Virus record (IMG/VR): IMGVR_UViG_3300030060_003428
Location: 1 to 27,903 of that record
Length of the DNA stretch: 27,903 bases
Strand: one strand, 5' to 3'
DNA from: a virus
This document shows, in pieces, positions 5,640 through 26,913 of the stretch (position 1 is the first letter of the stretch; every line of letters starts with the position of its first letter). The notes under the pieces were generated by a model that worked only from the letters and a program-made list of their open reading frames with translations, was not told the origin of the DNA and searched no databases. The position numbers and the translations under genes are program-made.

Positions 5640-6851
5640 ATGGAAAATTTAAAATCAAATTTTATAGAGTATGTTAAAGGTGCAAGTCGCCAAGACTTTG
5701 AAGAAATTAAGCCACCTAAAAAGGGTCTTATGAATCAAATAAAAAAGACTCCTAAAAAGTTTAATTTTCAGAAAATTATAAGAGACTTAAAACAACAATA
5801 TCTACCGCCGCCTGACCCTTTGCCAGTTAAAGAAGACTCTAATATGGGGTTTATTACTGATGTGGTAGGAAAAATATTTAAAGATTCTGTTACTAGGCAA
5901 ATTGAATATAAACAAAAAGTACGCAATAATGCTAACAAAATTCAAGATGACATGGAATATTTTAGTAGTAACATAGTAAATGTGCAACCTACTGAAACCG
6001 ATCTTGAAATAGAACGTATGTTAAAAGAAGTAAATACACCAGAGGAGAATAAACAAGGCTCTACAGTAACCTCCACAGACACTTATGAAGTTCCTCCTTT
6101 AAACTTAGATTCAACTTCAAAAGAAAATTTAGATATGCCTGTTGAGAAAAAAGAAAAAATTCCTCCAATAAAATTCATAAATTATGCTGTATCTTTTTTT
6201 GAAGAGTTTGAAGGAAACTTAGGTGGAGACAATGTTACTGGAAAAGAAACTTTACCATATGGTATTTTAAAGAAGACTGCTATTAGAAAAAATATAATTA
6301 AAAAGGATGTCGAGACAGATCTTGAGTATGCAATTAGATTTTATGATACTTTAGAAAAAGAAATGATAAAAAAGTATTTTAGTAGTAAAAAAGGCATTTC
6401 TTATGATGATTTTAGTAGAAATGAAAAAGTATCTATATTAAGTACTTATGCTAATAATGGAAGCTTTGCAAGAATGCCTAAATATGAAAAGGCTTTATTA
6501 AAAGGAGATAGGGCAGAAATGGGTAGACAATTATTAGATGTAATATCAGTAACAGAACCAGGAGCAAAAGTTAAAACTACTTCTTCAGGTTTAGCTGTGA
6601 GAAGAGCTGCTGAATATAATTTACTTAATCCGAAATCAAAACAAATAGCTTTTGTTAAAATGGTGGGTGAGAACAATAAATTTAACACACCAGTGACATA
6701 TGAATATAGAGATAAGGATAATAACATTATGTTTTCTTTTAGACCATCACAAAGACTAATATCTACGTCTAGTGTACCAAAAGACGGATCCTCTACAAAA
6801 GTTTATTCTGTCTTAAATAAATATAATGATTTTATAGAAAGGAATATATAA
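5640..6851 (+). CDS. Virion protein with GH24-like lysozyme domain
   Basis: A 403-residue protein. Residues 1-170 are basic and low in complexity, with a PPKKGLMNQ motif at 25-33. Residues about 176-345 resemble a phage lysozyme: FFEEFEGN (E191 in the position of the catalytic Glu of the EG motif), PYGI at 206-209 in place of the TIGYG motif, a helical region with YANNGSF, and SGLAVRRAAEYNLL (316-329), which matches the G-L-x2-RR-x-AE signature near the end of GH24 domains. Such domains in internal virion proteins cut peptidoglycan so that phage DNA can enter. The catalytic loop is divergent, so activity is not certain. The gene lies inside the virion block, directly upstream of further large virion genes. 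Confidence 0.65.
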   Translation: MENLKSNFIEYVKGASRQDFEEIKPPKKGLMNQIKKTPKKFNFQKIIRDLKQQYLPPPDPLPVKEDSNMGFITDVVGKIFKDSVTRQIEYKQKVRNNANKIQDDMEYFSSNIVNVQPTETDLEIERMLKEVNTPEENKQGSTVTSTDTYEVPPLNLDSTSKENLDMPVEKKEKIPPIKFINYAVSFFEEFEGNLGGDNVTGKETLPYGILKKTAIRKNIIKKDVETDLEYAIRFYDTLEKEMIKKYFSSKKGISYDDFSRNEKVSILSTYANNGSFARMPKYEKALLKGDRAEMGRQLLDVISVTEPGAKVKTTSSGLAVRRAAEYNLLNPKSKQIAFVKMVGENNKFNTPVTYEYRDKDNNIMFSFRPSQRLISTSSVPKDGSSTKVYSVLNKYNDFIERNI

Positions 6852-13549: not shown

Positions 13550-15484
13550 TTATGATTCAATGTCAACCACTTCACAAGCATCTCCACTACAAGCAAACGT
13601 TTGTACACCTGCTGTTGTATCTTCTAATTCAAACTTAGTAAGATTTGTCCATGTTATTTCTTTTGGCATTTTTGCATGGGCTTCTTTATATTGTTCTTCG
13701 TTTATCTCTTGATAAGGAGCTTGAGGATATACATTATCATCTGTAGGTAAAAAAGATATACCAGAGATATCATCAAAATATTTATATACAAAAGATGCTA
13801 CATCTACCCATTCTTCATCTCGAACTGAAACAGTACAACTCGGTTTATGCTCGCACCATTCTTCTTGATATATCTTCCACATTAGTAATTGATCGAGTGC
13901 AGACATGTCATTTCGTGTAACGCAGTTATCTGGTGACTTGACGGGAAAACTAAAGATAGTGGTGCTTTCGGGTTGATGAACACAAGACTCATAGGGAACA
14001 CCTTCTTCAATTAGAAGTTTAGTTAATGCATCATTATTGTCTCCTCGGATTGTGCGAATATAGTATTTACTATGCCTTGCATGTATGCCGCTTGCACTAT
14101 CGCAAAGTTGCGAGACAGTACCAGAGGGCTTGACACAAGTAATCGAAGTGGACTGTTGTATACCTAGCTTGTCTGCGTACTCTTTGTTTGTATTTATTGC
14201 TTCTGTTTTCAAAGCTTTTAATATATTTCTTAAATGTTCATTCTTACCATTCGTTAACGTATTATCCATTATACCAGTTAGCGATACTCCTAATAATCTT
14301 TCTTCTTCTGTATTCTTCTTCCAAATGTCACGAAGATAAGGAAAGTTAGTTAAGGTAGATTGTGCTGTGCCTAAGATGGTTGCAAGTCTTACTTTTCTTT
14401 TTAATGATTCTAAATTATCTGTTGCTCGAATAACTACTTCAGATAAATTACAGAACTGATATGGACGCAAGATAACTTCACTACAAGGATTACAACCAAA
14501 TTCATGTAAGTATTCTCTTCTTCCTGTTTTCTTTGCTTGATTCTTGGCGGAGAACCGATTGAATATTCCTCTTTCTCCTGCTCTTGATCTAATTAAAGCA
14601 GTAAATTCACTCATGAAAGTTTCAGCATCTGGTCTTGCAGACTTATCATCATCTCTTTCCGTTTTGTATACAACGGAATTATTTGATAAATTTAAATAAG
14701 ATTTATCTATCCAAAACTCTCCAGACTTTGCGTCTCTCATTTCAATATCATCAAGTTCAGATAATGAAATCATGGCACTTCTTCTTACACCACCTACGAC
14801 AACAACTTGCCCGATCTTACACATCAAACAATGACAATCGTAAGCAGATAGTTGTTTGCCTTTATTCTTAATAAATAAATCTTTAGTAAACTCAAATAAA
14901 GAAGCTAAAGGTTCTGGTCCACTTGCTCTTCCACCAAATGTTTTTAACCTAGCACCTTTGGGACGAATCTGACTTAGATCATATCTGAGTATTTTACCTT
15001 CATATAAGTTTTCAATAAATTCTCTAAAAGCTACAGCCCACCCTTCTTTTGAATCGTCTACGACTATATTCATTGAGCTTTCAATAAGTTCATTAGGAAC
15101 TTTAGGTAATGCTTTTACATAGTCATACTCAACTGAAAATCCAACTCCTGTTCCACATAATAATATGTACATCGTTTCATCAAACACACGCACATCATTG
15201 ACTGGAACATAACAACAATTATATCCTGCTGTATTGTCCCTCTCTAATGCTTTTCCAGCAGTCATTAAGGCTCGCATGGATGGTACAACCTGAAGAGTCA
15301 ATATAGCCTCGTAGAGGTCTTCTCTGTCCTTCTGAGAGAGAGTTACTTTAGAACATATATAGTCCATATATCTTGATACTGTTTCATCCCATGTTTCTCT
15401 TCTTTTTTCATTATCTAACCACTTAGCATAGCGAGAAACAGCGATGAAGTTTTGATAGTCAGAGGGTAGTAAATTTTTATTCAT
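13550..15484 (-). CDS. nrdJ: B12-dependent (class II) ribonucleotide reductase
   Basis: A 644-residue monomeric-type class II reductase that reduces ribonucleoside triphosphates to dNTPs using an adenosylcobalamin-derived radical. Key residues are in place: the redox cysteine in YNCCYVP (C90/C91), LLCGTGVGFSVE (109-120), the active-site NPCSE (332-336; C334 and E336) with its partner in QFCNLSE (C345), the KPSGTVSQLCDSASGIH loop (about 456-472), and the C-terminal shuttle pair CSGDAC (C632, C637). It is somewhat shorter than Lactobacillus RTPR (739 residues). It is the last gene of the leftward operon before the terminator and supplies dNTPs for phage replication. Adenosylcobalamin must come from the host or environment. 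No riboswitch is visible in the 84-base gap upstream. Confidence 0.95.
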   Translation of the reverse strand: MNKNLLPSDYQNFIAVSRYAKWLDNEKRRETWDETVSRYMDYICSKVTLSQKDREDLYEAILTLQVVPSMRALMTAGKALERDNTAGYNCCYVPVNDVRVFDETMYILLCGTGVGFSVEYDYVKALPKVPNELIESSMNIVVDDSKEGWAVAFREFIENLYEGKILRYDLSQIRPKGARLKTFGGRASGPEPLASLFEFTKDLFIKNKGKQLSAYDCHCLMCKIGQVVVVGGVRRSAMISLSELDDIEMRDAKSGEFWIDKSYLNLSNNSVVYKTERDDDKSARPDAETFMSEFTALIRSRAGERGIFNRFSAKNQAKKTGRREYLHEFGCNPCSEVILRPYQFCNLSEVVIRATDNLESLKRKVRLATILGTAQSTLTNFPYLRDIWKKNTEEERLLGVSLTGIMDNTLTNGKNEHLRNILKALKTEAINTNKEYADKLGIQQSTSITCVKPSGTVSQLCDSASGIHARHSKYYIRTIRGDNNDALTKLLIEEGVPYESCVHQPESTTIFSFPVKSPDNCVTRNDMSALDQLLMWKIYQEEWCEHKPSCTVSVRDEEWVDVASFVYKYFDDISGISFLPTDDNVYPQAPYQEINEEQYKEAHAKMPKEITWTNLTKFELEDTTAGVQTFACSGDACEVVDIES

Positions 15485-18565: not shown

Positions 18566-20623
18566 TTAAATTTCCTTTAATTCTAACCAATTATATCCAA
18601 TTTTTGTTTCTAAAAGTAATGGTACGTTGAAGTGAACCCGAAGGTATTTCAGGATCAAGTCGGGCAGATTTTGATTTATAGATTCGACTGCATCTCTCAC
18701 TTTTTGATCCTCGCAAGGACTCACATCAACAACCAAACTGTCGTGTACCGAATTTACAATACAACTTTTACAGTTGTCAAGTTGTAAATCCAATTCTATT
18801 AAACATATCTGTATTAAATCCGCTGAAGCCAGAGATTGAACAGGGTAGTTTTTAATTCTTGTAAAATGCGTAGGCGTTCCATCCACCTTCCTTTTAATGT
18901 CGGGGAAAGAAAACTGTCGCCCTGAAGGTGTAGTTATAAAAGATTTAGACAAGGCAGTGTCTCCCAATTCTTTGTGCCACTTTGAAATGCCTTGATACTT
19001 CTCTTGAAAATGTCTTATGTAAGCAGCGTCTGCCTCAGTTTTCCCAAAGGGACTCGAACCAAAGAGAGGTGAAAATGTTCTGCTTTTTGCTTGTCCTCGA
19101 TTCGTTGGTTGACCTGCATTTGTAAGAAATTTAGCTGTATATGAATGCACATCAAAGCCTGTTTCTATTTCTTTAATAGCTACTTTGTCTTGGCTTAAAA
19201 AGGCAGCCACTCGAAATTCGAGCTGAGCAAAGTCTGCTTCAAGAATCTTTCCATCTTCAAACCTTGAAACAAAAACTTTTTTTACTGGAAACGTACCACC
19301 CCTTGGCATATTCTGCATATTAGGTTGCCTTCCACTAAATCTGCCAGTCGCAGTAATATGTTGAGTCAGTCCAACGTGTAGGTATCCGTCATCCTTTGTA
19401 AAAAGTTCTATAGATTTTAGATAAGTATTTAAGTAACTTTCTAAAGCGGAGTATCTTCTAAGTTTATTTAAGAACTCTTCAGCTAATTTATTATTTATAA
19501 TTTTAGCTTTAGTTTCTAAAAGTTCTAAAATATCTTTTGATGTATTAAATCCAGAAGCAGACACCCATTTTTTATTTACAGGTGTAAATTTTAAACCTGC
19601 TACTTCATCCAGTTTTTCTAAAGTATAGCCCAAAGCATCACAATTTTTACACTTGTTAGGTTTTTTAAACTTAGATCCATCTTTTCTAACTTTGTAGACA
19701 AACTTAGCTCCTTTACAAATGTCACAAATGGACGCTTTTGTCTTATACATTACTGTTGAATTTTCATTTATGATGTTTCTTAAAGTTTGATTTTGACTCC
19801 AAGGAGTTTCTCTACATTTCCTAAATAAATCTTCACCCCATGATTTTTTACTATTAATCTTTCTTGAAAAAACTATTTGTGAAACTTGTTCTGGTGAATT
19901 TAAGTTTAAAGGAGTATCTCCCATGACCTCTTTTATCTTTTTATGTAGCCACTCTAGTATCTCAGATCGCTCTTTCTCAAACTCACTTTTAACTTCTTTA
20001 AGAACATCCATATCAACTTTAAAACCATTGATGTACATCTTAGTCAAAACCTTACAAACATTATTTGTGATATCTATTATATTTTTTAAAGGTAAACTTC
20101 TCTCAGTTTCCAACTCTTGAGTTAAACATATGTACAAATCTTTAGTAATTTTTAAATCGTATTCTAGATACTCACAAAGTTCTAAATAAGGAATCTGTTT
20201 AGTCGTGTACCCTTTCTCAAAGTAAGTTTTTAGTGTGTCTTTCTTTTGATCTAACTCATATCTTTTAGAACATTCTGCCAAGGACAAAGGTTGTTTTAAT
20301 CCTCTGAGTAACACATACTCACAGAGCATTGTATCAAATATTTCTCCATTATACTTAAAACCACAACACCAGAGCCACTGAAGATCATGTTGTGCATTGT
20401 GCATAATTAAAAGCGTTGTTTTATCTAGAATAGATTGAAGTTCCTGTGGATCATCTGGTTTCTCTATTTCATCATGATCAAAAGTAAATATTTTATAATC
20501 GTTGGGTTTATCTACATTAACAACTCCAACCATCGTCAATGTGTTTGAATTTTCAAAAGGATCTAAATGTAATTTATTATGTTTTTTTATTGTTGTGTTC
20601 TCAACATCTAATACTATTCGCAT
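18566..20623 (-). CDS. Family A DNA polymerase with DnaJ-like zinc insertion
   Basis: A 685-residue T7-type replicative polymerase. The N-terminal 3'-5' exonuclease has LDVENT (D6, E8), IMHNAQHDLQWLW (D80) and EYLEYDLKIT (D156). A zinc-binding insert at about 298-333 has CDIC (C300, C303) and CKNCDALG (C325, C328), resembling half a DnaJ central domain. The palm/fingers follow: motif A ADFAQLEFR (D464), motif B R509-x3-K513-x3-F517, motif C NSVHDSLVVD (D628). The insert placement is as I recall for the HMO-2011 polymerase. Motif C has Ser where Pol I and T7 have Glu after HD, and the ddNTP-discrimination position is Phe, as in E. coli Pol I. Start ATG follows AGAGGTGAG, 10 bases after the helicase stop. 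Confidence 0.93.
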   Translation of the reverse strand: MRIVLDVENTTIKKHNKLHLDPFENSNTLTMVGVVNVDKPNDYKIFTFDHDEIEKPDDPQELQSILDKTTLLIMHNAQHDLQWLWCCGFKYNGEIFDTMLCEYVLLRGLKQPLSLAECSKRYELDQKKDTLKTYFEKGYTTKQIPYLELCEYLEYDLKITKDLYICLTQELETERSLPLKNIIDITNNVCKVLTKMYINGFKVDMDVLKEVKSEFEKERSEILEWLHKKIKEVMGDTPLNLNSPEQVSQIVFSRKINSKKSWGEDLFRKCRETPWSQNQTLRNIINENSTVMYKTKASICDICKGAKFVYKVRKDGSKFKKPNKCKNCDALGYTLEKLDEVAGLKFTPVNKKWVSASGFNTSKDILELLETKAKIINNKLAEEFLNKLRRYSALESYLNTYLKSIELFTKDDGYLHVGLTQHITATGRFSGRQPNMQNMPRGGTFPVKKVFVSRFEDGKILEADFAQLEFRVAAFLSQDKVAIKEIETGFDVHSYTAKFLTNAGQPTNRGQAKSRTFSPLFGSSPFGKTEADAAYIRHFQEKYQGISKWHKELGDTALSKSFITTPSGRQFSFPDIKRKVDGTPTHFTRIKNYPVQSLASADLIQICLIELDLQLDNCKSCIVNSVHDSLVVDVSPCEDQKVRDAVESINQNLPDLILKYLRVHFNVPLLLETKIGYNWLELKEI

Positions 20624-22820: not shown

Positions 22821-23732
22821 CTACCACAGGGTTTTTCTGTCGGATAAGGCAACTAAAGCAGATTTTAGTGTGTGTTTGAGATAAGGTTTTAAGGAACTAG
22901 GATTCTGATGACCAGAAACACTCATAATAGAAGCTATATCCTTTCCAGATTCAACCATCTCAGTAACAGCAGTCCTTCTCATATCAGATGCGTATAACTC
23001 TGGAGGCAAGTTACACTCTCTCTTAATTCTATTAACATGTCGGGATATTTCTTGTTTTGTGTAGGGTTTATAACCAGAACTGTTCTGTACAAGAGAGGGT
23101 GCAACATACTTTGTTATTTCTCCAAACCTCTCTACTTGTTCCCATAGCATTTTCATAAGATTTTTATCGTAAATTGGTAGATGAACTTTTGCTCTTCTTT
23201 TAGATTGTTCTAAATTTAATTGTTCTTTTTCAAAATCTATGTTTGACCATTGCAATTCTCGTATATCTCCTATGCGTTGCCCAAAAGAATACGCCATATG
23301 CACGATTAAACCTATATTTACTGTCTTCCAGTCTTTATAAGCATGATCTAAGAAGATTTTTACTTGTTCTGGCGTCCAAATTACCTTTCGATTTGTTTCT
23401 TTGACCCTTGTAATGCCCATCGTTGGATTATCAGTAATCAATTCTAACTCTTTACCATAATTGAATACCTTTTGAAGCACAGAAAGTGTATAGTTGGCTG
23501 TTCTAATGCCTTTATTTAACCATTCATCATAGCCTTGTTTAAAAACAGAGCGAGATAACTCGTTTAATTTGTAATTAGCAATCGTTTTATCATTTACTTT
23601 TGTAATTAATGCTCGATTAAGATTGACTTGATAGTCTCGTTTTGTAGTGTCTCTAAGTTTTTTAAAATCATGAGATTCTTTATAGTGTTGTACAAGTGTA
23701 TAGAAATTACTTTTGTTTGTAATCTTTTTCAT
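22821..23732 (-). CDS. int: Tyrosine recombinase / phage integrase
   Basis: A 303-residue site-specific recombinase that would insert and excise the phage genome. The N-terminal 100 residues form an arm/core-binding type domain (TLVQHYKESHDFKKLRDTTK; LSVLQKVFNYGKELELI). The catalytic domain shows R153 in FGQRIGDIRELQW, a Lys in SKRRAK (about 177-182), R252 in ASDMRRTAVTEMV, H275 in VSGHQNPSS and the nucleophile Y284 in PYLKHT. The usual His of the HxxR box is Ser249 here. AAGGAA precedes the ATG. The upstream leader carries a strong palindrome (23769-23803). The gene lies between lysis genes and the replication operon and suggests a temperate lifestyle. Confidence 0.93.
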   Translation of the reverse strand: MKKITNKSNFYTLVQHYKESHDFKKLRDTTKRDYQVNLNRALITKVNDKTIANYKLNELSRSVFKQGYDEWLNKGIRTANYTLSVLQKVFNYGKELELITDNPTMGITRVKETNRKVIWTPEQVKIFLDHAYKDWKTVNIGLIVHMAYSFGQRIGDIRELQWSNIDFEKEQLNLEQSKRRAKVHLPIYDKNLMKMLWEQVERFGEITKYVAPSLVQNSSGYKPYTKQEISRHVNRIKRECNLPPELYASDMRRTAVTEMVESGKDIASIMSVSGHQNPSSLKPYLKHTLKSALVALSDRKTLW

Positions 23733-24251: not shown

Positions 24252-24725
24252 TTACTCTTTATTTTCGTTATGCTTGCTAATTAATTCAATAAAATTCTTA
24301 GGTCTGAGCAAGGGTCTATTTTCTTTATAAGGTCTATAGAAAACATGATTGCCAACTTCACTCACAAATTCATAGTTACTTTGCCAGTAAGGAGTAATTT
24401 GATTACTATGATAATGTGTTACCTCATCGCCGACAACAGAGATGTACTCTCCATTTCTTAACATTAATTCAGCGATAGCTTTAGCTCTTTGATAAGAAAA
24501 CCTATCCGTCATAGTATCAGATTGCCCATCACACCACCAAGAGAATTGGCAGCCCTGACTATTTTCCTCTAAAACAACAGAACAAATATCATTTGGATGG
24601 TCATGAGATGCAACTCTGTTTAAAGTTACTTCAGCTACAGCTATTTGTCCTGCAACCTCTTCTCCCCGAGCTTCAAAGTAGATGTTCGCACTCAAACATA
24701 ACAATGCAGTTGTCTCTAATATCAT
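24252..24725 (-). CDS. SleB-like cell wall hydrolase (endolysin)
   Basis: A 157-residue Hydrolase_2 (SleB/CwlJ) family protein, cutting peptidoglycan glycan strands. Family hallmarks: ANIYFEARGEEVAGQIAVAE near the N-terminus (the Glu of YFEARGE is the expected catalytic residue), VTLNRVASHDHPNDICSVVL, the CQFSWWCDG motif, and a C-terminal region THYHSN...PYW with a GNHVFYR end. The start is set at the ATG at 24725, since AAAGGAG lies 8 bases before it and overlaps the stop region of the previous gene; an in-frame extension to 24782 is unlikely. There is no clear signal peptide, so export would need a holin, and two tiny membrane ORFs follow immediately. By place on the early strand it is separate from the late virion block. 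Confidence 0.88.
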   Translation of the reverse strand: MILETTALLCLSANIYFEARGEEVAGQIAVAEVTLNRVASHDHPNDICSVVLEENSQGCQFSWWCDGQSDTMTDRFSYQRAKAIAELMLRNGEYISVVGDEVTHYHSNQITPYWQSNYEFVSEVGNHVFYRPYKENRPLLRPKNFIELISKHNENKE

Positions 24726-24726
24726 T

Positions 24727-25038
24727 TCATTCTCCTTTACAAAGTATATGAACACGTTTGACAACTTCATCATTGTGCCCACCTATGTGCCAATGATATA
24801 TATCTCTGATGTCTTTACCATATTTGCCAAGATAGTTTCTACCATTCTTCCAATTATAGATTGTCGCTATAAGTCCATCACTGAATTTTAAAACCCATGT
24901 TCCGTCTGTTTTGTAACCATCCCAATCAAAGGGCTCACCAAATAACGTCACTAACTTCTCATAAGAGATTTCGATGTCCCCTCTGAGACACGTTTCATTA
25001 ATCTCAGTTGAATATTTATCTAATATTTTGTATTCCAT
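24727..25038 (-). CDS. Conserved small phage protein (WKNGRNYLG type)
   Basis: A 103-residue protein with the pattern ISYEKLVTLFGEPF...DGYKTDGTWVLKFSDGLIATIYNWKNG and a final YHWHIGG. I remember this arrangement (LFG-P...D-x-YKTD-x-W...DG-x-ATIYNWK-G-NYLG...WHIGG) from small proteins of many tailed phages, where no function is assigned. It begins behind a strong AAAAGGAG site 13 bases after the methyltransferase stop. Its last codons (TGTAAAGGAGAATGA) provide the ribosome-binding site for the endolysin gene, so the two are coupled. Confidence 0.65.
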   Translation of the reverse strand: MEYKILDKYSTEINETCLRGDIEISYEKLVTLFGEPFDWDGYKTDGTWVLKFSDGLIATIYNWKNGRNYLGKYGKDIRDIYHWHIGGHNDEVVKRVHILCKGE

Positions 25039-25051
25039 TTTCTTTCTCCTT

Positions 25052-26497
25052 TTATTTTGTTTCTTTCAATTTAGTTTCTTTGATTGCCAATGCAATTTGC
25101 ATTGGTATTTGTGGCAATACAGCATTGCCTAGTCCTTTTAGTCGCTTTGCACGATCTTTTTTTCCTCTTGCAACTCTTGGTATATCTTCTGGCTCTTGTA
25201 TAAAACCATCGTGTTGTTGTGGGTTATCACAATCAAGATCTGTCCAACCTCTATCGTATCCCATCAGCCACTCTACCCAATCAGGATTTAGAGAATTTTT
25301 TTCTATATTATTTAAATTTTCCTCAACAACTTTTGTACCTAGAGTATGACTCCTCGATCCAGATTGCACACTTGGAGGCACAACATAACCATCTTTAAAA
25401 TCTCTTGCTCGTGGTGTGGGCCACATCTCTGTCATTTTTTTATATGATCTATGATTCTCCATTTTTGTTTTTGTCATTACCTCTAAGTCTTCTTGTGAAA
25501 TAATTCCATCAACCATTTTTTTATAGAGGTTTTGATACTGACCTTCGCTACCATGACCATACCCTTTAGTTGTAGGAGTGGGCCACATCTGATCCTTTTC
25601 ATGCCATTCTGTAACAACGACTGTTGTCATTTCTTTATCGTACTGTATTGTTTTTAAATAAGGTTTTATTTTTTGCCAATCTTCTACAGAAGGATAACTA
25701 AATCCAGATTTATCACGCCTAAACCAGTGTTCTATTGTGGTTTTTTTCATGTTTGTTTTTTCAACAAGTTCTTTAATTGAAGTATTATTTCTTAAAAATT
25801 CAACAAATTGTTTTTGTTCTGGGAGCTTCGGACGTTGTATCATTTGATAATCTTTATAGACTTTAATTAAATCTGGGTTTTTAACTATTTCTTCCATCAT
25901 CACTTCGTCACTCAATGTTATTTGAACAGTATGTCCACTGTTTCGTTGGGTTTTCCCTTGAACAAGTTTAGTAGCGTGTTTTAAACTATCTCGTCCATCC
26001 TTTGTATCAACTGTCGTGGGTGTTCTCCACATCTTCATCGTTTCTCCATCGACTTGCTCTCTCAAATTACTAGGTTTAGTACGCCCTTTGCGATGACCAT
26101 TTTGCATTTTTAATGTAGCCTCTTTACTTCTCTGTGGAAGATGATCAAGTGTATTAGGTGTTGCCCACAAACTTGCAGACGATCCAGATTCTTTCTCTTT
26201 TGTGGGGAGCACCAACCGAGTAAGCTGGTATATTGAACGTCTGGCAGGTGTATTTTTCATTTTCCATGTCAAGGAGAACTTGGTCGAGTCCCAACGCAAT
26301 ATGACCAGGAACATTTTCAAAAACACACCAAGCGGGTCTTTTGAGTGCAATGATTTTATGTATGTAGGGCCAGATGTGGCGAGGGTCTTCGGTCCCTTTT
26401 TGTTTACCTGCAACTGAGAACGGCTGACAGGGATATCCAGAACTGAGGATTGTGTTTGACCATTCAATGTCTGTGGAAATAAATCTTTCTGTGTCAT
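25052..26497 (-). CDS. C5 cytosine methyltransferase, target-recognition/C-terminal half
   Basis: A 481-residue protein. Residues 1-108 are encoded in the +1 frame of the catalytic-half gene (344-base overlap). From about 109 the protein takes over the enzyme: SLWATPNTLDHLPQRS, three further W-x-TP units (at about 156, 304 and 358), a helix-turn-helix-like segment (about 224-280: LPEQKQFVEFL, then SIKELVEKTNMKKTTIEHWF), DWVEWLMGYDRGWTDL (406-421) and the conserved motif X-type end RLKGLGNAVLPQIPMQIALAI (452-472). It should recognise the target and complete the fold of the catalytic half. AAAGGAA lies 7-8 bases before the ATG at 26497, so independent initiation is possible; a +1 frameshift giving one chain is the alternative. 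Confidence 0.75.
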   Translation of the reverse strand: MTQKDLFPQTLNGQTQSSVLDIPVSRSQLQVNKKGPKTLATSGPTYIKSLHSKDPLGVFLKMFLVILRWDSTKFSLTWKMKNTPARRSIYQLTRLVLPTKEKESGSSASLWATPNTLDHLPQRSKEATLKMQNGHRKGRTKPSNLREQVDGETMKMWRTPTTVDTKDGRDSLKHATKLVQGKTQRNSGHTVQITLSDEVMMEEIVKNPDLIKVYKDYQMIQRPKLPEQKQFVEFLRNNTSIKELVEKTNMKKTTIEHWFRRDKSGFSYPSVEDWQKIKPYLKTIQYDKEMTTVVVTEWHEKDQMWPTPTTKGYGHGSEGQYQNLYKKMVDGIISQEDLEVMTKTKMENHRSYKKMTEMWPTPRARDFKDGYVVPPSVQSGSRSHTLGTKVVEENLNNIEKNSLNPDWVEWLMGYDRGWTDLDCDNPQQHDGFIQEPEDIPRVARGKKDRAKRLKGLGNAVLPQIPMQIALAIKETKLKETK

Positions 26498-26669
26498 TTG
26501 CTAATTCCTTTACATCATTACATATTTTTACGTTTGGAAATCTTTTCTTTAATATATCTCTTGTCCATTCTTCTATATCACAAAATAAAATGGGTTTACT
26601 TAGTCCTGCATCCATAAAACCTTTAGCAAACCCCCCTATACCAGAGCATAGGTCAATATGATTCATCAT
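26154..26669 (-). CDS. C5 cytosine methyltransferase, catalytic half
   Basis: A 171-residue protein with the front part of a Dcm-type enzyme that methylates C5 of cytosine with S-adenosylmethionine. Motif I is HIDLCSGIGGFAKGF at the N-terminus, motif IV GYPCQPFS (catalytic Cys of the PC pair), motif VI CVFENVPG and motif VIII VGAPHKRERIWIV. It stops 8 residues after motif VIII, so it lacks target-recognition region and motifs IX-X, which are in the overlapping gene. Start is set at 26669 (ATGATGAAT) because AAAGGAG lies 10-13 bases before it, not at 26720. Known precedents for two-polypeptide C5 enzymes are M.AquI and M.EcoHK31I. Likely role: protecting phage DNA from restriction. Confidence 0.9.
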   Translation of the reverse strand: MMNHIDLCSGIGGFAKGFMDAGLSKPILFCDIEEWTRDILKKRFPNVKICNDVKELANDTERFISTDIEWSNTILSSGYPCQPFSVAGKQKGTEDPRHIWPYIHKIIALKRPAWCVFENVPGHIALGLDQVLLDMENEKYTCQTFNIPAYSVGAPHKRERIWIVCKFVGNT

Positions 26670-26913
26670 TTTTATTCTCCTTTTGCCTTTCTTTTTCTTT
26701 TTGCCTATACATTTTACCATAAGCTCTCATGTAGGCGTTCCAACTTTCTTTGTTGTTTTGTCTCCATTTTTTATTCTGAGATGAACGCTTATCTTTATTC
26801 TTTTCATAGTATTGTTTATAATATTCTCTTAAATGATCACGATTATTTTTTCTCCATTCTCTTCGATATTCTCTAAAATACTCTTCTTCAGTTTGATTTT
26901 CTTTTTTATTCAT
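26653..26913 (-). CDS. Small highly charged, lysine/tyrosine-rich protein
   Basis: An 86-residue protein rich in K, R, E, N and Y, with a repeating pattern of the type REYRREWRKNNRDH, LREYYKQYYEKNKDK, SQNKKWRQNNKES. It looks like one long basic helix with about 15-residue periodicity. Comparable segments occur in front of HNH nuclease domains in phages, but no nuclease domain follows here. It overlaps the preceding gene by 8 bases and the methyltransferase start by 17, and its terminal codons include the AAAGGAG site used by the methyltransferase. Function unknown; nucleic-acid binding is a reasonable guess. Confidence 0.6.
   Translation of the reverse strand: MNKKENQTEEEYFREYRREWRKNNRDHLREYYKQYYEKNKDKRSSQNKKWRQNNKESWNAYMRAYGKMYRQKEKERQKENKNDESY

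Follow-up and report, generated by a model that had tools for sequence, protein, structure and literature searches.

The window analysed here, a viral contig of 27.9 kb, carries on its minus strand two overlapping genes, alpha and beta, that divide between them the motifs of a C5-cytosine DNA methyltransferase. The alpha ORF extends from 26720 to 26154 and probably starts at ATG 26669 (MMNHIDLC), which is preceded by the Shine-Dalgarno sequence AAAAGGAG (26677..26684, minus strand); the resulting gene (26154..26669, minus strand) ends in the TAA at 26156-26154 and encodes a putative catalytic subunit of 171 aa. Motifs I (DLCSGIGG), IV (GYPCQPFSVAG, with the PCQ hallmark), VI (FENV, with ENV) and VIII (GAPHKRERIWIV, with RxR) are all found in alpha, which matches Pfam family DNA_methylase (PF00145, E=5e-32), phrog_363 (E=5e-47) and, in the PDB, M.HhaI (E=1e-12). 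The end of a very charged 86-aa ORF (26653-26913, minus strand) overlaps the start of alpha; it matched no family apart from a weak hit to phrog_14214 (E 0.04).

Beta (25052..26497, minus strand, 481 aa) is read in the +1 frame relative to alpha. Its Shine-Dalgarno sequence AAAGGAA (26505..26511, minus strand) lies within the alpha codons for VKEL, and an in-frame TAG sits one codon 5' of the beta ATG. An earlier sequence-only reading had assigned beta its own Shine-Dalgarno and ATG, and this part stands; the spacing it gave, AAAGGAA-N8-ATG, does not, the actual arrangement being AAAGGAA-N7-ATG (or AAAGGA-N8-ATG). Residues 15-175 of beta match PHROG family 1008 (E=1.4e-31). A PDB sequence search with beta returned no relevant match, and the AlphaFold model of beta alone was poor (pTM 0.32) and unfit for a structure search.

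The product of beta begins with a conserved N-terminal segment (SLTWK...), the core of which, FSLTWKMKNTPARRSIYQL (26222..26278, minus strand), is a predicted hairpin in which W78, T83 and L92 are invariant among 53 betas, as is G43 of the same segment. Behind it lie four WxTP cassettes, all on the minus strand: cassette 1 (WATPNTLDHLPQRS...NLREQVD; 26030..26167), common to 36 other cassettes of the set, cassette 2 (WRTPTTVDTKDGRDSLK...; 25904..26029), cassette 3 (25424..25585) and cassette 4 (WPTPRARDFKDG...SGSRSHTLGT; 25292..25423). Cassette 2 carries a helical, helix-turn-helix-like insert (25586..25903, minus strand) that is also present in three relatives (L002, L005 and L008) and absent from the close kin L006; the middle of this insert (beta residues 222-293) shares 49% identity with a portion of a methyltransferase of Staphylococcus phage Alsa. 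The motif IX equivalent, LNPDWVEWLMGYDRGWTDL (25235..25291, minus strand; residues 403-421), reads LNPDWVEWLMG and was assigned by position and pattern. Motif X (RAKRLKGLGNAVLPQIPMQIALAI; 25082..25153, minus strand; residues 449-472), with its hallmark GNAVxPQ, is in the beta frame here and in the alpha frame in most relatives.

The two genes share 344 bases (26154..26497, minus strand), in which alpha motifs IV-VIII are encoded over the beta N-terminal segment. The coordinates bear out the sequence-only reading of a catalytic half (motifs I-VIII) and a recognition/motif X half in frames offset by +1, and translation shows that the two dual readings it picked out, SLTWK over LDMENE and PTKEKESGS over PHKRERIWI, are both correct. 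When the window alpha was shuffled synonymously, the +1 frame of the overlap acquired a mean of 4.5 stops and was open in none of 100 shuffles; over 110 relatives the mean expectation is 3.5 stops, and the real overlap is open. The possibility had been raised that a base is missing or extra near 26170. No base has been gained or lost there, because the three nearest relatives (L004, L006 and L009), on separate contigs, show identical frames and have an alpha stop.

To see how widespread the overlap is we used viral loci, 80 of them retrieved with beta as the query and 64 with only alpha, together with cellular/prophage loci on bacterial and archaeal genome contigs. In all 63 of the alpha-fetched viral loci that reach motif VIII the +1 frame is open across this motif; it begins 95-149 codons before it and carries LNPxW unless the contig end intervenes, and the third frame is usually short at this place. 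A cellular scan with the alpha peptide gave no matches; the scan with the beta alignment (beta motif WVEWLMG) did yield loci, and among the 77 of these with a full alpha and motif IX, motif IX is in the +1 frame in 72, with an overlap of at least 60 codons in 71, and in the alpha frame in 4. Three of these 4 (L205, L234 and L239) keep WxTP cassettes in the +1 frame, and the fourth, L194, is a true single chain. With IX and X both in the alpha frame and the recognition cassettes alone in +1, the three loci represent a third division of the enzyme. An apparent hybrid of split and fused forms was seen in Gordonia phage Gudmit (L153), where the +1 frame has some of the WxTP cassettes and the alpha frame those that follow, along with IX and X. 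The overlap occurs in phages of Paenibacillus, Lacticaseibacillus, Rhodococcus, Xanthomonas, Escherichia, Rhodobacter, Porphyromonas, Bacteroides and cyanobacteria, for which database annotators have called one or both frames. The +1 frame of a classical phage Dcm-like gene (L160) has, at the corresponding place, open stretches of only 11+24 codons. Homologues thus keep the +1 overlap, which was one of the checks that the sequence-only reading had named.

That reading left unseen that most relatives are fully nested and that motif X moves between frames. Among 110 non-redundant loci, 72 are nested: their alpha continues past motif IX and contains motif X. The window type accounts for 28; a further 8 missed the strict pattern and 2 are cut by the contig end. 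The first motif IX pattern overlooked the variants LNPQWVAWLMG and LNPxHSRWLMG, both of which inspection finds in the +1 frame. In the nested form alpha stays open through the recognition region and ends in motif X, so that beta, with the cassettes and motif IX, lies inside it. No stop interrupts the alpha frame of the recognition region in 76 of the 80 nested-form loci, where 5.6 stops are expected per locus; in window-type loci the alpha frame of this region has 15.6 stops against 15.1 expected. On the alpha tree the exchange between nested and window-type forms needs 9 changes, at least 8 of which are forced by well-supported branches, although long branches make the deepest groupings uncertain. 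There has therefore been repeated movement of motif X between chains, and of motif IX too in three loci; motif X has changed frame at least 8 times.

Selection in the two frames was followed along the gene. Fourfold sites of alpha differ in 31.9% of cases upstream of the beta start and in 14.7% within the overlap, and a sign test over 42 disjoint pairs, 34 of which change less in the overlap, gives 7e-5, with the proviso that the pairs are not fully independent and that codon constraint may not have the same baseline in the upstream and overlap parts of alpha. Difference rates at alpha codon positions 1/2/3, from 27 nested-form pairs, are.103/.069/.227 upstream,.077/.039/.127 in the overlap,.264/.157/.150 in the recognition region, where the beta wobble position is highest, and.119/.095/.308 at motif X. 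Alpha-3 is thus the fastest position upstream and, though damped, also in the overlap; alpha-1 (the beta wobble) takes over across the recognition region, and at X alpha-3 is fastest once more. Protein-level constraint thus switches from alpha to both, then to beta and back to alpha along the nested gene. A permutation test that keeps codon pairs gave no more than a modest excess for frame 1 (BLOSUM z 8.4, against 4.6 for frame 2). Fourfold sites, codon positions, stops and this test show the second frame to be constrained within the overlap. The beta start is conserved as well: a Shine-Dalgarno sequence stands before the first ATG of beta in 84 of 110 relatives, compared with 20% for other internal ATGs, and several loci without this Shine-Dalgarno and ATG start at a GTG in the same place. 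On this sequence evidence the two-frame arrangement is not a broken gene; selection maintains it across many bacterial phyla, in their phages as well as their prophages. The suggestion that the overlap is ancient and conserved, as in M.AquI and M.EcoHK31I, and not a lesion is borne out by the homologues and by the constraint on both frames.

The structural evidence comes from a nested relative, L011, to whose alpha the window alpha is 64% identical. Its predicted alpha resembles M.HhaI without the small domain, with the core and the motif X helix mostly at pLDDT of about 90-98, while the linker 169-284, where the DNA codes for the beta recognition region, has pLDDT of about 35. The model superposes on M.HhaI 11-324 (Z 22), its motif X helix on the C-terminal helix of M.HhaI, and alpha is accordingly modelled with an M.HhaI-type catalytic fold. 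The single-chain locus L194, on an Actinomycetota contig, encodes 730 aa in which the motifs of alpha are joined by the N-terminal segment of beta, by several WxTP cassettes and by motifs IX and X. The stretch behind its motif VIII matches the dual-coded beta N-terminus (E 2e-5; 31.4 bits against at most 23.8 in 20 shuffled controls), and its C-terminal part matches beta with E to 1e-21. The order of these parts in a single chain supports alpha and beta as two parts of one enzyme.

The 110 betas contain 352 cassettes, 1-7 per beta, with a median length of 41 aa. Cassettes recur at differing positions and in both nested and window-type forms, a distribution that fits their being exchangeable specificity units, each of which may read one target. 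With 1-7 such cassettes, beta is probably the specificity subunit.

Taken together, the frames and their conservation make it very probable that the locus encodes a heteromeric phage C5-cytosine DNA methyltransferase, two chains of one enzyme made from two overlapping frames. One mRNA would carry two independent ribosome starts, at 26669 for alpha and at 26497 for beta. Alpha would give cofactor binding and catalysis (motifs I-VIII); beta would give the DNA-recognition domain, made of the N-terminal segment, several WxTP cassettes and IX, together with the motif X helix in the window, and so the small domain that the M.HhaI-like fold of alpha is without. The two would fold together into one enzyme and methylate the DNA of the phage, and perhaps that of the host, at sites that the cassettes determine, probably as a protection against restriction; evasion of restriction is the usual role of phage methylases. 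In most relatives the alpha frame of the recognition region would also be translated, giving a disordered linker behind which motif X can dock back on the core. From this arrangement we infer that two polypeptides are made and associate, and likewise the activity, the target sites and the biological role of the enzyme.

Out-of-frame readings of related DNA do resemble one another, and the strict permutation excess is only modest, so the +1 frame might merely echo conserved alpha DNA, with beta beginning at the cassettes and its N-terminal 110 codons nonfunctional. We give this little credence: synonymous change is halved in the overlap, which has no stops where 3.5 are expected, the beta start is conserved, G43, W78, T83 and L92 are invariant, the N-terminal segment is homologous to in-chain sequence of L194, and the classical Dcm-like gene lacks a comparable open +1 frame. 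An equally improbable alternative, already listed by the sequence-only reading, is a programmed +1 frameshift near motif VIII that yields a fused chain, the upstream open second frame being a by-product. A single base does part IWIV from a fused ASLWATPN in the window, and a single-chain relative exists. However, the beta Shine-Dalgarno and start are conserved about 100 codons upstream, the beta frame is under constraint before any shift point, the alpha stop falls at a variable distance past motif VIII, and no slippery site common to the relatives was found at the junction; in most relatives no shift is needed, because alpha reaches motif X in its own frame. A recent inactivating indel or an assembly error in one methyltransferase gene, conceivable for a metagenomic contig in which a single-base change would join the frames, has a negligible probability and is refuted by L004, L006 and L009 on other contigs and by essentially all relatives, which have the same frames with neither decayed.

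M.AquI and M.EcoHK31I had been proposed as precedents. The second chain of M.EcoHK31I is nested in an alternative frame. Each of the two is a C5 enzyme that occurs naturally as two chains (PMC3404938). Compared by motif division, M.AquI is like the window, its larger chain having I-VIII and its second chain IX-X (PMC3404938), and this is the division found in the two ORFs here. The M.AquI alpha also has part of the variable region (PMC3404938), whereas the window alpha stops a few residues past motif VIII and leaves every recognisable cassette to beta, whose start lies about 110 codons before the cassettes, within alpha, which gives the 344 shared bases. In M.EcoHK31I, compared in the same way, I-VIII and X are in one chain and IX in the other (PMC3404938), the pattern of most relatives (for example L011, L005 and L149); this division is seen in 72 relatives and not in the window, where X is in beta. 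The predicted recognition domain of M.EcoHK31I is in the large chain (PMC3404938), while here codon rates and cassettes put recognition in the +1 frame. By analogy of motif division, then, the window is the M.AquI-like end of a series, and the nested form resembles M.EcoHK31I as regards X and IX.

In databases the beta frame (phrog_1008) and the alpha frame (phrog_363) are listed as separate 'DNA methyltransferase' or hypothetical proteins, and in Paenibacillus phage Sitara gp60 is annotated within gp59 as 'g59 internal gene'; in these PHROG and Sitara entries we found no statement of a two-frame enzyme. M.SPRI and M.phi3TI are multi-specific Bacillus phage C5 methyltransferases with tandem cassettes in the variable region; they share with beta the several tandem recognition cassettes and differ in being a single chain in one frame. 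The ShiLan domain is alike in that an out-of-frame ORF lies in a phage methylase gene and the methylase reads through it as a poorly ordered insert, but the hidden protein is an HNH homing endonuclease and not a methylase subunit (PMC11855218). The part of the literature that we covered, which dealt with the enzyme, with methylase genes that overlap and with the internal gene of the Paenibacillus phage, gave no description of the two-frame family.

New here are the breadth of the arrangement, the two-frame constraint along the gene, the switching of motifs and the finding that cassettes are shuffled in a gene read in two frames. Outside small viruses, genes on one strand seldom overlap over a long stretch with both of their proteins conserved; in the present case the two products would be parts of a single enzyme. 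Belief and doubt are evenly balanced on the broader proposal that the two-frame C5 methyltransferases of phages and prophages form a large class that has mostly gone unrecognised. In this class a catalytic chain would be paired with a modular, HsdS-like specificity chain in +1, the cassettes would be shuffled among phages, often without loss of either reading frame, and IX and X would pass from one chain to the other. An origin of the beta N-terminal domain by overprinting is plausible; if the class is real, this domain would have been born in that way on motifs IV-VIII. Many 'DNA cytosine methyltransferase' entries would then be the catalytic half only, with the specificity half unannotated in +1, and methylation targets could not be predicted from such entries because that half is missing from the annotation. 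The natural series from one chain through the window type and the nested type to cassettes alone in the second frame lets one test the origin of overlapping genes and the movement of motifs between two chains.

The surroundings of the two genes give a phage context. The minus strand of the window encodes a B12-type ribonucleotide reductase (13550-15484), a family A DNA polymerase (18566-20623) and a tyrosine integrase (22821-23732). There are also two separate endolysin-like genes, at 24252-24782 (minus strand) and 5640-6851 (plus strand), one of which is a Hydrolase_2 cell wall hydrolase and the other a match to phrog_31077.
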